From Verrucomicrobia bacterium S94 (lineage in GTDB: Bacteria; Verrucomicrobiota; Kiritimatiellia; Kiritimatiellales; Pontiellaceae), in NCBI GenBank assembly GCA_004299845.1, contig CP036201.1, positions 3,410,001 to 3,474,000 of the forward strand: a stretch of 64,000 nucleotides of DNA, in the 5' to 3' direction. Position 1 is the first letter of the stretch. Every line of letters begins with the position of its first letter. The position numbers and the translations under genes were made by a program. This document shows, piece by piece, positions 8,981 to 43,033 of the stretch. The notes below the pieces were generated by a model. The model worked only from the letters and a program-made list of their open reading frames with translations. It did not search any database and was not told the DNA's origin.

Positions 8981-10669
8981 TTATTGATTCTGTTTTTCGG
9001 ATTCCGGAAAGGTTTCGCTGCCGTCGGCTCCAAAGGGGAAGGCGCCGTTCGGCATCAGCTCGCGAAGCTCCGGAGTAACCCGTTCGGTAATATCTTCGTT
9101 CGTGGCATCCGGATGTTGATAGAGGTATTTATATAATGCGGTGCGGTCCGCCTCATTCAGGCCCAGGCTGTTGGCGAGTTCATTGGTTCGTTTGTAGGCG
9201 GCCTCTTCTTTCTTTCGGTTTTTCTGTTCTTCGATTTGGATAGCCAGCTCTTCCTGCTGCTCTATGGTCAGGTTTTCATTCAGCGAATCAATTACCTCTT
9301 CTACCTCATACCATTGGCGCGGGGCTTGAGTGTTTCCTGCATCCAGACCCATATGGACATTGTTTTCCGCCATTTTTTTTGTGTAGGTCTGAACATATTC
9401 TTCCTGCGCCGCCGAGAGGGGCTGTCCGGCTTTCTGCATGGTTTGCAGTGCAACGAAATTCACTAATCCTTCCCGGTCTGTTTTCAGAAGGTTTTTCAGG
9501 GCTTCAGAGGATGCCGTTACGGCATCCTGCAAGCGTTGCTTTTCTGTTGCGGCATGTTCGGCCAGAATTTCATCAAATCGTTCGACCGCTTCCGGATCAA
9601 GTGAAAGCCGGTGCCGGAGTTTTTTGGAAGGATTTTCGATCTGTTTTGCCAACGCGGCCTGTACCATTTGATTACCCATCATGGGCAGGGCCATTTCCAG
9701 GATACCGGTGGCCTGTTCTGCCTGCCGGTAATAGACCGGATCAATGTCGAGTGATGCAGGCTCAGGTTCGGGAATAAACGCATCTGTGGTTTCTGCTTTT
9801 ACGGTTTTCTGGATTGCTGCCGGCTCTACCCTTGCAGGCTCGACCGCTGCGGGAGGAGCAGAAACGGAAGGATGATCAGTATGGGCTGTTTCTGTATGTC
9901 GGGAGGATAGGTAAACTCCGGTTCCGGTGATAGCCGTTGTCGCGACAACGGCTGAGATAAGTACGGTCTTTGTTTTCATGATGGTAATGACTGCTCCTGT
10001 TAGGGTTGAGGTTCCTGAAAGCGTGACTCCTGCACCGGCAAGAACGGAAGTTGAAATGGTTTTGGCCAACTCTGCCGGTGCCGCGACCATGGCATGCGTT
10101 GGAAGGGCTGCGGCCAGTGCTGCCGCCGTTGAGGAGATTCCGCGCAGGGCCATCTGGCGGTTCAGTCGCTCCAGCGCCCGGTTCAGCCGCATACGTGCGG
10201 CATCGGCCGTAATGCCGAGAACCGAGCCCACTTCGGCCAGACTTTTCTGCTGGAAGAATCGCAGCAGAATGGCCTCACGCTCGGCGGCATTAAGTTGATC
10301 AATAGCTTCGTGGATCTCCGGCATCAGCCGGCTCCAATCCGGTTCACGGTCCTGCTGCATATTCATATCGTCCACATATCGTTGTTCGCGTGTTTGGCGG
10401 CGTGCTTCCGAGTGCTGGATTTTTTTGGAGAAATGACGGGCCGTCGCATGAATCCATCCGCCCAGTTGAACGGAGTCCGACAGTTTTCCGGCTTTTTTAG
10501 ACAGTTCCAGGAAGGTGAGCTGACAGGCATCTCCGGCCTGGTCTGCATTGCCCAGGCAGGAAAGAGCGGCCGAGTAGGCCAGATTGATGTAGCTTTCGAC
10601 GATCTGCGCAAAGGCGGTCTGGTCGCCATGCTCTGCATACTGTTTCAATAATTCGATGTTTTCATTCAT
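8981..10669 (-). CDS. ECF-type RNA polymerase sigma factor with membrane and extracytoplasmic extension
   Basis: Residues 1-175 are an ECF sigma: region 2 (AFAQIVESYINLAYSAALSCL, with GDACQLTFLELSKK) and region 4 helix-turn-helix (AEREAILLRFFQQKSLAEVGSVLGITADAARMRLNRALERL). A linker rich in Ala/Thr follows, then one membrane segment near residue 235 (TVLISAVVATTAITGTGVYL), a Pro-rich stretch, and a helical, Gln/Glu-rich domain of about 280 residues (ending QNQ). At 562 residues it is about three times the length of a plain ECF factor. The tail may take the place of an anti-sigma factor, sensing the periplasm; this is an inference. No separate anti-sigma gene is next to it. Confidence 0.9.
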   Translation of the reverse strand: MNENIELLKQYAEHGDQTAFAQIVESYINLAYSAALSCLGNADQAGDACQLTFLELSKKAGKLSDSVQLGGWIHATARHFSKKIQHSEARRQTREQRYVDDMNMQQDREPDWSRLMPEIHEAIDQLNAAEREAILLRFFQQKSLAEVGSVLGITADAARMRLNRALERLNRQMALRGISSTAAALAAALPTHAMVAAPAELAKTISTSVLAGAGVTLSGTSTLTGAVITIMKTKTVLISAVVATTAITGTGVYLSSRHTETAHTDHPSVSAPPAAVEPARVEPAAIQKTVKAETTDAFIPEPEPASLDIDPVYYRQAEQATGILEMALPMMGNQMVQAALAKQIENPSKKLRHRLSLDPEAVERFDEILAEHAATEKQRLQDAVTASSEALKNLLKTDREGLVNFVALQTMQKAGQPLSAAQEEYVQTYTKKMAENNVHMGLDAGNTQAPRQWYEVEEVIDSLNENLTIEQQEELAIQIEEQKNRKKEEAAYKRTNELANSLGLNEADRTALYKYLYQHPDATNEDITERVTPELRELMPNGAFPFGADGSETFPESEKQNQ

Positions 10670-24579: not shown

Positions 24580-24690
24580 CGCTATGCCGGCGCAGGCGAG
24601 TGAGACGGGGCGCCGCCGCATCGTAAAAGGAGCCGATTAACATAGATACCATTTACTAAAACATTCGGGTCTTAACGACAGCGTTATTCC

Positions 24691-24760
24691 GCGCAGCGAC
24701 GCAGAGCGCGCGGAGCCATTTATGACTGAATTTCTCTGCGCTCTCTGCGCCTCTGCGAGG
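24691..24760. repeat. Inverted pair of CGCAGAG-type repeats (CACAGAG family)
   Basis: The left arm (24691-24715) reads GCAGCGACGCAGAGCGCGCG and the right arm (24734-24760) is its imperfect reverse complement, with the heptad-like CTCTGCG unit repeated three times. They are separated by 18 bases and could fold into a hairpin. It is the GC-rich form of the repeat at 33581 and 42018. Confidence 0.65.
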
Positions 24761-25112
24761 GATCAAATTTATAACGGATAGTTTTAACGTTTGGTATGAG
24801 ATGTTTCCCCAAAGGTTGACTGTGCTGTAACCTACCTGTTTTTATACTGAATAATATAAACGAATAAAAATAAACCCTCTCTAAACACCGGAGCAAACCG
24901 AAGTGCTGAGGTTTATAAAATACAAATGTACGGGAATCCGTCCGCGATCAGAAGCGTGAGAACAGATCTGCCGTTCAGGGAACGGATAAACATCATGTTT
25001 TCCAAACGCAGGAAGTGTATCGAATTGTGCGCCACAACACCGGGGTTGAATATTCCGGTAAAAAACGATTGATTTTCCTGCCGTTCCCGTTATCTTCTTC
25101 GCTCTTTCGGTT
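24761..25112. other. Intergenic region between repeat pair and tRNA-His
   Basis: About 350 bases with no credible gene: the frames present lack a ribosome-binding site and any motif. It is AT-rich around 24830-24890. I see no RNA gene other than the tRNA at 25113. Confidence 0.5.
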
Positions 25113-33580: not shown

Positions 33581-33628
33581 CAGAGAAACACAGGGGAAGG
33601 ACTCTGTGTTCTCCGAGTCCTCCAGCGG
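33581..33628. repeat. CACAGAG-type inverted repeat pair
   Basis: CAGAGAAACACAGG (33581-33594) and CTCTGTGTTCTCCGAG (33602-33617) are imperfect reverse complements 7 bases apart. This is the same unit as in the pair at 42018-42224. It lies where the right half of an attC site and the start of brnT would be expected. Confidence 0.6.
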
Positions 33629-41335: not shown

Positions 41336-42013
41336 ATGGAAACAACATTTGCAGATCGACTGGAACTGGTGGAGCAGCGGATTCGCGCCGCCTGTGAAAA
41401 AGCGGGGCGGGCGCGTGAAGAGGTGACGTTGCTTGCCGTCTCCAAAACCAAACCGCCGGAAGCGGTGCGCGAGGCCGCGGAATGCGGGCTGCGGCTGTTC
41501 GGTGAAAATAAAGTGCAGGAGGCGCAGTCGAAAATTTCGATGTGTCCTTCCGGGCTGGAGTGGCATCTGATCGGACATCTTCAGAGCAACAAGGCCAGGA
41601 TAGCGGCCAATCTGTTTCATATGATTCATTCGGTGGATTCTCTGAAACTGCTTCAGACCCTGGACAACCATGCAAACACTACATTGCCGGTATTGCTCCA
41701 GGTTAATATTGCGGGTGAGGCGGCGAAGTATGGTTTAAAACCCGACGAAGTGGCCGGAGTCATTGAGGCCGCCAACCGGATGAGCAAATGCGAGGTGCAC
41801 GGTCTGATGCTCATTCCGCCGTTTTCGCCGGATCCCGAAAAAACGCGCGCTCATTTTGCCGACCTCCGTAAACTGCGCGATCAGCTGCAGGACGAAACCG
41901 GCACGCCGCTGCCTGAGCTTTCCATGGGGATGTCGCACGACCTGGAAGTGGCAGTTGAAGAGGGCAGCACCTGGGTCCGCATCGGCACCGATCTGTTCGG
42001 GCATAGAGACTGA
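41336..42013 (+). CDS. yggS: PLP homeostasis protein YggS
   Basis: 225 residues of the YggS/PROSC family: VTLLAVSKTKPPEAVREAAECG with the PLP-binding Lys, FGENKVQEAQSK, WHLIGHLQSNKA, LLQVNIAGEAAKYGL and LSMGMSHDLEVAVEEGSTWVRIGTDLFG. It binds pyridoxal phosphate and keeps free PLP levels balanced. It lies about 220 bases before proC, which is its common neighbour, with the repeat pair between. Confidence 0.96.
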   Translation: METTFADRLELVEQRIRAACEKAGRAREEVTLLAVSKTKPPEAVREAAECGLRLFGENKVQEAQSKISMCPSGLEWHLIGHLQSNKARIAANLFHMIHSVDSLKLLQTLDNHANTTLPVLLQVNIAGEAAKYGLKPDEVAGVIEAANRMSKCEVHGLMLIPPFSPDPEKTRAHFADLRKLRDQLQDETGTPLPELSMGMSHDLEVAVEEGSTWVRIGTDLFGHRD

Positions 42014-42017
42014 ATAA

Positions 42018-42224
42018 CCTCAGAGGACACCGAGAGCTCAGAGAATGGATAAGGATCCACTAACTGAAAAAGTTATAGGTTGTGCCGTTGAAGTGCATCT
42101 GACTGTCGGCTCGATAGGTTGTTGAAGGTTCTTTAAGTTCAATGTTGTGTGCTTAATAGACGGTATTAAACGTATAAGTAATTAATCAAAACACCCTCTG
42201 TGCTCTCTGTGGCCTCTGTGGTAG
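42018..42224. repeat. Inverted CACAGAG repeats around a GxxExxY gene remnant
   Basis: The left arm (42018-42048) CTCAGAGGACACCGAGAG... and the right arm (42193-42224, rc CACAGAGGCCACAGAGAG...) agree at about 22 of 28 bases in inverted orientation. They flank 42045-42192. The right arm reaches to 12 bases from the proC start. Confidence 0.75.
42045..42125 (+). pseudogene. N-terminal remnant of a GxxExxY protein gene
   Basis: ATG at 42045 begins a 26-codon frame with LTEKVIGCAVEVHLTVGS, ending at a stop (42123-42125). LTEKVIGxAxEVHxxLGPG is the start of GxxExxY proteins (small PD-(D/E)XK-related family). The expected PGLLESxYE continuation and some 100 further residues are missing. It lies inside the inverted CACAGAG arms. 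Confidence 0.75.
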
Positions 42225-42235
42225 AAAGTTTCATT

Positions 42236-43033
42236 ATGAATATTGTATTTATCGGAGCGGGTAACATGGCTGAAGCCATTGTTGCGGGAATCATCAGACA
42301 GAACGTGGTAGAACCGTCGGACGTCTGTGTAACGGATATCAGCGAAGAGCGGCTTGACCATTTTTCGCAACAGTACGGTGTCGGCCGTTCCACGGATAAT
42401 GCTGCCGCGGTGGCGCAGGCGGATGTGGTGGTGCTTTCGGTCAAACCGCAGATTTTTCCGGACGTCTGGCCGGGAATTGAGGGTGCACTTAAATCCGATG
42501 CGCTGGTCGTCAGCATTATGGCCGGGATTCCCTCCGCAAAAATCGCCAAAGATAAACCGATCCGTGTGGTGCGGGTGATGCCCAATACGCCGGCGTTGAT
42601 CGGTGAAGGGGCAGCGGGCATCGCCGCCGGTGAATATGCCACGGAAGCCGATGTAAAAATCGCAGAAAAACTGCTCGGTGCGGTTGGAGTTGCCGTGGTG
42701 GTGAAAGAAGAGGAAATCGATGCGGTAACGGCGCTGAGCGGCAGCGGCCCGGCCTATGTCTTTTATCTGCTCGAAAGTATGCTTGAAGCCGCGGAACAGA
42801 TGGGGCTCGAAAAAGGAGTTTCCCGCGATCTCGCACTCGCAACCGTCATTGGAGCCGCAAAGCTGATGAAAGAGTCGGGTGAGGATGCGGCCGATCTGCG
42901 AGCAAAGGTAACGTCGAAGGGCGGCACCACACATGCCGCGATTTCCACAATGGAAGAACACGGCGTGAAGGATTCCGTTGTTGCGGCACTCAAAGCTGCG
43001 CAGACACGGTCCGTCGAACTGGCAAATGGCTAA
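42236..43033 (+). CDS. proC: Pyrroline-5-carboxylate reductase
   Basis: 265 residues from the ATG at 42236 (an earlier ATG at 42200 is inside the repeat). MNIVFIGAGNMAEAIVAGII gives the NAD(P)-binding fold, VVLSVKPQIFPDV, VVRVMPNTPALIGEGA, ALSGSGPAYVFYLLESMLEAAEQMGL and SKGGTTHAAI are signature motifs. It reduces P5C to proline, the last step of proline synthesis. It overlaps the next gene by 8 bases. Confidence 0.97.
   Translation: MNIVFIGAGNMAEAIVAGIIRQNVVEPSDVCVTDISEERLDHFSQQYGVGRSTDNAAAVAQADVVVLSVKPQIFPDVWPGIEGALKSDALVVSIMAGIPSAKIAKDKPIRVVRVMPNTPALIGEGAAGIAAGEYATEADVKIAEKLLGAVGVAVVVKEEEIDAVTALSGSGPAYVFYLLESMLEAAEQMGLEKGVSRDLALATVIGAAKLMKESGEDAADLRAKVTSKGGTTHAAISTMEEHGVKDSVVAALKAAQTRSVELANG

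Follow-up and report, generated by a model that had tools for sequence, protein, structure and literature searches.

The window analysed here, a stretch of 64,000 nucleotides (G000:C1:3410001-3474000), belongs to the 4.1-Mb genome of Verrucomicrobia bacterium S94, whose near relatives, by protein comparison, are Kiritimatiellales MAGs. Between a yggS-like gene of PLP homeostasis (41336-42013, plus strand; taken from the list of open reading frames and orthologous in context within the genus) and proC (42236-43033, plus strand; matched in 26 of the 28 genomes of the genus) lies, at 42017-42222, the relic of a GxxExxY (PF13366) element, which starts 3 bases past the stop codon of the yggS-like gene. 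Its left inverted arm (42017-42043, plus strand) consists of three units, ACCTCAGAGG, ACACCGAGAG and CTCAGAG, and pairs with the right arm, CTCTGTGCTCTCTGTGGCCTCTGTGGT (42196-42222, plus strand); the left arm and the reverse complement of the right are identical at 22 of 27 positions, and their local score of 34 exceeds the best score of 27 obtained among 5000 shuffles. The arms enclose two remnants of the gene, both on the plus strand: a 5' remnant of 26 codons (42045-42125), which runs from an ATG at 42045 to a TGA at 42123-42125 and is translated as MDKDPLTEKVIGCAVEVHLTVGSIGC, and a 3' remnant (42138-42185; FNVVCLIDGIKRISN, then a stop), which matches the C terminus typical of these proteins (LINFNVERLVDGITRF in the relative G008) and represents the last ~15 codons of the gene. 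An internal deletion separates the two. The inverted arms and the truncated gene reported here in a preliminary description are thereby corroborated.

The 26-residue relic by itself yielded no profile match in a TIGR04256/PF13366 search, so that its assignment to the family rests on alignment to an intact GxxExxY gene with CACAGAG arms, which is found in G008 at the same yggS|proC junction (L010/L183) and is the nearest to the relic among 190 GxxExxY proteins (score 126; next 104). This intact copy has arms of the same type. The earlier proposal that the arms delimit a discrete unit enclosing GxxExxY is supported, and the T-E-D-T-E stretch that had been proposed as a read-through of the arm is real, the G008 frame reading ...IFTTEDTEKMEKDPLTGKIIG. 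In G027, the closest relative, inspection shows the right arm alone at this junction. The window locus is a decayed element, probably either inherited at the yggS|proC site or reinserted there, the species being too distant to separate the two. No Rfam family was matched at the locus, a nearby tRNA being the sole Rfam match.

CACAGAG occurs 10 times in the window against 4.5 expected, a mild enrichment, and was rejected as the defining sequence of the element, being one among many arm types. Two other places in the window had been taken for empty copies. The one at 33581-33628 scores 14, which is chance level. The one at 24691-24760, with a score of 30, is a genuine palindrome, yet it forms the core of another repeat family, a MITE whose ends read TACCA...; neither place is therefore supported as a copy that has lost the gene. 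The MITE itself, with its CGCAGAG palindrome core, spans 24647-24796 (no strand assigned) and has 45 genomic matches with the common ends TACCATTTACTAAAAC / GTTTTAACGTTTGGTA; the family (L285-L314) numbers about 40 copies. The sequence CNCNGAGNNCNCNGAG, with 85 genomic occurrences against 1 for its reversed control, is matched mostly within this MITE family.

The nuclease and its inverted arms

In an alignment of 60 GxxExxY sequences, residues D67, E77, K79, E27, Y30 and N108 are conserved, and the D...(D/E)xK active-site residues D67, E77 and K79 are invariant or nearly so. An AlphaFold2 model of the protein (pLDDT 95) found its best Foldseek matches in Cas4 SSO0001, LHK-Exo, RecE and lambda exonuclease (E 6e-4 to 1e-2), with the catalytic domain of I-Bth0305I as a weak match at rank 24. 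Residues and model support the prediction of a PD-(D/E)XK nuclease. A role as a defence system was considered and set aside, PADLOC giving Cas4-like matches below threshold only.

The window's genome carries six PF13366 genes above the Pfam cut-off, two of which, L003 and L002, reach 146 and 140 bits with TIGR04256 (cut-off 35), and by eye all six sit between inverted arms, each of a different sequence. For a systematic test, the 200 bases upstream of each gene were aligned to the reverse complement of the 200 bases downstream, with a threshold score of at least 30. Among 106 full GxxExxY genes of the window's genome and 57 related genomes, 71% of the loci reached this score, against 3% for mismatched flanks, taken from different loci, 2% for far flanks, taken further out, and 0 of 530 shuffles; in a second, independent sample of 78 genes, drawn from named genomes across many phyla (Verrucomicrobia, Planctomycetes, Acidobacteria, Bacteroidetes, Proteobacteria and others), arms were present at 65% of the loci, against 6% for mismatched and 1% for far flanks, and since the loci are best-scoring matches and the alignment itself defined the arms, it is the mismatched and far controls that bear the argument. 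The statistical link between arms and GxxExxY genes, on which the preliminary description had made its proposal depend, is very strong in the relatives as well as in other phyla. About 30% of the GxxExxY genes have no detectable arms. Eight plasmid records were matched, and phages gave no match. The open-access literature, in which a full-text search turned up two papers naming the family, yielded no description of the link between GxxExxY and its arms, and the term "undescribed" is therefore provisional.

With a median length of 30 bases, the arms are composed of about three direct units, here called iterons, with a period of 9 (8-10), as in three repeats of CACGAAATA, of CACTAATnnn or of CGCAAAGn; they start with ACCAC, TCTCGC, TTTTGACAGG and others, a GTAG-type head being missing. 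Departures from a single pair of arms are also seen, as in the window's genome, where one GxxExxY gene (L005, ~1101-2300) lies inside a long tandem array of CCACGGATGGCACGGATTTACACAGATG. At the trpE|trpG junction (L318/L322) the right arm has four units in G017 and three in G001, a 9-bp indel in elements that are otherwise 98% identical, which indicates that the number of units changes fast.

The elements are placed just past stop codons, between co-directional genes, and 89 of 154 genes are co-oriented with both neighbours, an approximate count in which the neighbour is the longest open frame. This placement would suit arms that were transcription terminators or RNA stems lying by chance around a small gene. 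Such an explanation appears exceedingly improbable: mismatches between left and right arms comprise 145 G-U-compatible changes against 145, and with no excess on the sense strand, selection to maintain an RNA stem enclosing the gene is unlikely. Direct viewing shows that the right arm is typically followed by A-rich, not T-rich, sequence and that this arm can overlap the ribosome site of the next gene, and the build of three iterons is unlike that of a terminator, nor does the locus have an Rfam family.

The sequence of the arms follows that of the protein. Over 120 loci, the more alike two proteins are, the more alike are their arms (Mantel rho 0.32, p 0.001): arm similarity rises from a mean of 0.26 below 40% protein identity to 0.52 at 60-70% and 0.80 at 70-80%, and the trend is also present for the window's relatives versus other phyla. 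Arms of orthologues at the same site are 88-92% identical (33 pairs), with gene DNA mostly at ~65-85% and flanking genes at 73-91%; in the pair L035/L098 the protein is 96% and the gene DNA 81% identical. Concerted evolution of the two arms was rejected, as identity within an element is lower than between orthologues. The architecture, the co-variation of arm and protein, and the constraint on the arms are shown by these comparisons.

Gene-less palindromes and their cognate nucleases

Palindromes with the same iterons also occur without a gene. Those of the CACTAAT type (CACTAATNNNCACTAAT), counted in 58 genomes, are most numerous in G005 (56), G013 (51), G042 (37), G017 (35), G037 (31) and G031 (23); the other genomes have a median of 0 and a maximum of 21, and reversed controls gave 0 or 1. 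The six highest counts fall in the six genomes whose proteins come nearest to the nuclease of the CACTAAT clade (100%, 85%, 74%, 72%, 73% and 62% identity, in the same order), of which the five carriers at 65% identity or more were known before counting and G031 was added after its count had been seen; expressed per megabase, the ordering is less clean. The six genomes represent two families, and G003 and G021, near relatives of G013, have 3 and 0 copies. For the ACAGAAG type (ACAGAAGNNCGCRAAG) the top three genomes are G014 (65), G017 (31) and G005 (27), each with a cognate gene at 87-100%, the copy in G014 being cut by a contig end. The association with a cognate gene covers these two arm types. 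Despite the lack of a detected cognate, 11-22 palindromes were counted in some genomes, namely G028, G039, G022 and G036 for the first type and G010, G022 and G002 for the second, some of these genomes being incomplete; most relatives are draft genomes, in which carriers may be missed where sequence is incomplete.

Most of the ACAGAAG copies inspected in G014 lie in one MITE (L535-L553), unrelated to the family of the window's genome, with the palindrome in its interior, and such palindromes seem repeatedly to hitch-hike in MITEs. The presence of palindrome-bearing MITEs in both genomes could suggest that GxxExxY is the passenger of an ordinary DDE/HUH transposon or MITE, with the arms as its ends and the transposase elsewhere. 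We consider this very unlikely, as the palindrome is interior in those MITEs and their ends differ, and as the arms vary with the GxxExxY clade and have no common end sequence. MITEs, which are mobilised in trans as the palindromes may be, resemble them in being short gene-less inverted-repeat elements, yet MITE copies are related over their whole length, whereas palindromes of the GxxExxY type share their iterons alone.

Across several genomes, 38 CACTAAT palindromes have iterons that match at 96% and pair at 93%, and their facing spacers match at 13.6%, against 33.5% +/- 3.4% for permuted partners (0 of 5000 as low). The ACAGAAG type shows a weaker effect (18.8% versus 29.5%, p 0.02), its MITE copies not being independent, and five gene-bearing CACTAAT elements, mutually related, show no spacer anti-pairing. 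Judged by their sequences, the short palindromes resemble hairpins whose bubbles are held open, either as a recognised shape or through avoidance of perfect palindromes, which are poorly tolerated by cells. Gene-less CACTAAT copies have differing spacers and loops with shared iterons, and orthologous gene-less palindromes are common to G005, G017 and G015; spacers are similar among the orthologues and different within a genome, which indicates that copies in the same genome did not arise from each other by recent duplication.

The preliminary description had regarded the gene as the cargo of a small mobile unit. "Cargo" is probably the wrong word, since arm sequence tracks protein sequence and gene-less palindromes are commonest where the cognate gene is; gene and arms look instead like partners that work together. 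That gene-less copies of the two arm types are most numerous where the matching nuclease is present suggests an undescribed, nuclease-driven form of miniature mobile DNA. The strongest rival to this reading is a system of host-serving sites, in which the palindromes are binding or processing sites of the cell (at mRNA 3' ends, in chromosome organisation or in repair) and GxxExxY is a resident enzyme whose gene is autoregulated via its own arms. It owes this rank to well-conserved genes and arms and to palindromes that are not recent copies: inheritance is vertical and selection purifying (L035/L098), arms are kept over long times, and gene-less copies, some of them orthologous between genomes as described above, have in common their iterons and not their spacers or loops, as selected sites would. 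Palindrome number, however, differs strongly among congeners, and together with the observations on gene junctions below, this makes a host-serving system rather unlikely.

Occupied and empty gene junctions

The trpE|trpG junction holds a complete element in G000, G001, G005, G008, G015 and G017 and in G004, G009, G022, G024, G025 and G027 the element is cleanly absent; in G012 it has a stop, and in G014 it is internally deleted with both arms kept. G014 and the window relic are thus examples of the copies, postulated earlier, which have lost the gene and retained both arms. The element recurs in G029, a member of another family. Of what was to be looked for at such sites, full genes between arms were found, and target duplications were not: none was recognisable by inspection of full versus empty trpE|trpG sites, the species being too distant for short duplications to be seen at most sites. 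Neither an excision product nor a recent within-genome burst was seen. In the locus series L315-L331 the end of the right arm (GCGAGAGA) occupies the place of the trpG ribosome-binding site, and this substitution may explain why insertion into the operon is tolerated.

In G001 and G017 the trpE|trpG element is 97.9% identical, against 83.0% for trpE and 83.5% for trpG, and the stretch of high identity extends a few tens of bases beyond the arms into both genes. This reads as same-site transfer or conversion with short converted flanks, in one clear pair. The remaining same-site orthologues mostly diverge like their flanks, and on sequence divergence most of them appear to be vertically inherited. 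Conflict between trees was rejected as a proof of transfer at this junction, since it was not significant and the flank and element topologies are compatible; with vertical-like pairs and no significant conflict, the single pair G001/G017 makes the case for lateral transfer. At the ftsY junction, two unrelated clades are found whose arms differ; in other species the junction holds gene-less palindromes or nothing. Host-serving sites would accord poorly with the clean absence from trpE|trpG in many congeners, with the transfer between G001 and G017 and with an ftsY junction taken by unrelated nuclease clades.

Site sharing is frequent among similar proteins (76 of 150 pairs at 65% identity or more) and rare among dissimilar ones (11 of 5184 pairs below 50%). 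Such a distribution, like the G001/G017 element with its short converted flanks, would fit a plain free-standing homing gene, each clade of which cuts and is copied into one conserved junction, with arms that are incidental or serve expression in the operon. Free-standing homing endonucleases, PD-(D/E)XK types included, likewise have a nuclease gene placed at a fixed junction and flanks that are converted, a feature seen here in the pair G001/G017. The arms, however, are protein-specific and better conserved than the gene, gene-less palindromes of the same type occur at many other sites, and about half of the similar pairs are at different sites, so that plain homing seems improbable. To our knowledge, free-standing homing endonucleases have not been described as having iteron arms specific to the protein or gene-less copies that are dispersed.

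A candidate two-part miniature element

RAYT/REPIN systems have a transposase gene enclosed by inverted REPs, along with dispersed REPs that lack a gene (PMC2817692). The plan is similar: there, the gene is always or mostly between two inverted palindromic repeats, with dispersed gene-less palindromes and largely vertical inheritance (PMC2817692, PMC3116915, PMC8049555); here, the GxxExxY gene is flanked by inverted arms, each of which equals one half of a gene-less palindrome, and gene-less repeats are abundant together with the cognate gene for two arm types. The enzyme differs, however, being an HUH/Y1 transposase there and a protein of PF13366 PD-(D/E)XK fold here, and so do the repeats, as the GxxExxY arms have about three iterons each without a GTAG head and the gene-less copies vary in spacers and loop. 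With a similar plan and a different enzyme and repeats, the GxxExxY system works like RAYT/REPIN, its closest kind, and is not a member of it.

The best reading of the data, to which we assign a probability of about 0.6, is that a GxxExxY nuclease and the iteron palindromes cognate to it are the two parts of a miniature element that is mobile by means of the nuclease, a RAYT/REPIN-like pair in which a Cas4-like PD-(D/E)XK enzyme would replace the HUH transposase. Nuclease-driven mobility is the simplest way to explain at once why arms pair with proteins, why cognate palindromes are dispersed, why the element is present or absent at one site, and why same-site transfer is seen. A complete element comprises an arm, the nuclease gene and the inverted arm, with about three direct units of 8-10 bp per arm whose sequence differs from one nuclease clade to another. 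Binding of the nuclease to its own iterons, as duplex or extruded hairpin, is probable, as is cleavage at the iterons or at the target. Repair would then copy the unit, as a rule into the same junction between genes in a related cell and, less often, into new sites. Gene-less palindromes with the same iterons would be spread or maintained in trans. The elements occupy gaps between co-directional genes and decay by internal deletion, which leaves the arms, and the window locus is one such decayed copy.

A wider proposal is made tentatively, the odds being somewhat against it: that this is a novel class, mobile or genome-organising, in which a single-domain Cas4-like PD-(D/E)XK nuclease would act on its own imperfect hairpins (three 7-bp helices, with bubbles kept unpaired) using an iteron code private to each clade, in many bacterial phyla, and in which four-helix-bundle (23S IVS) proteins would share this design, their iterons being of 7 bp. 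For PF13366/GxxExxY, a common family without an assigned function, the present data supply a partner, the flanking iterons, and a testable biochemical substrate. If the reading is true, RAYT/REPIN-like biology arose with an enzyme unrelated to HUH transposases, many unexplained palindromes of environmental genomes gain an owner, and the clade-specific iteron code constitutes a natural library of nuclease-DNA specificities. The likeliest place for catching recent movement is the GxxExxY clade of L066, L067, L068, L014, L024, L017 and L008 (72-92% identical), which is found at differing sites, twice in G031, several of its members having arms of the ACCACCCG... type.

Known IVS are located in 23S rRNA and are excised by RNase III. 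Those with an S23/four-helix-bundle ORF (PF05635) resemble the GxxExxY elements in that a small ORF lies within terminal inverted repeats of ~28 bp, and differ in the fold of the protein and in the unit period, 7 versus 9. In Coxiella, the homologous ORF within 23S rRNA is enclosed by a terminal inverted repeat of 28 bp, and the whole is regarded as a selfish element (PMC4990558). Among 30 PF05635 genes at protein-coding junctions, 43% have inverted arms, against 3% for mismatched flanks, with a period of 7. A census of 40 evenly spaced stretches of the genome (864 kb), in which a strict-pattern search for iteron arrays proved too insensitive, recorded 63 inverted repeats, mainly simple palindromes, and the sole gene-sized iteron pair encloses a PF05635 gene (3309536-3309994; L411 ~9537-9994). 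The arms of the PF05635 genes (L146-L175) are built from 7-bp units of the TAGGCAT, GTCCAAA and GTTTGGA types.
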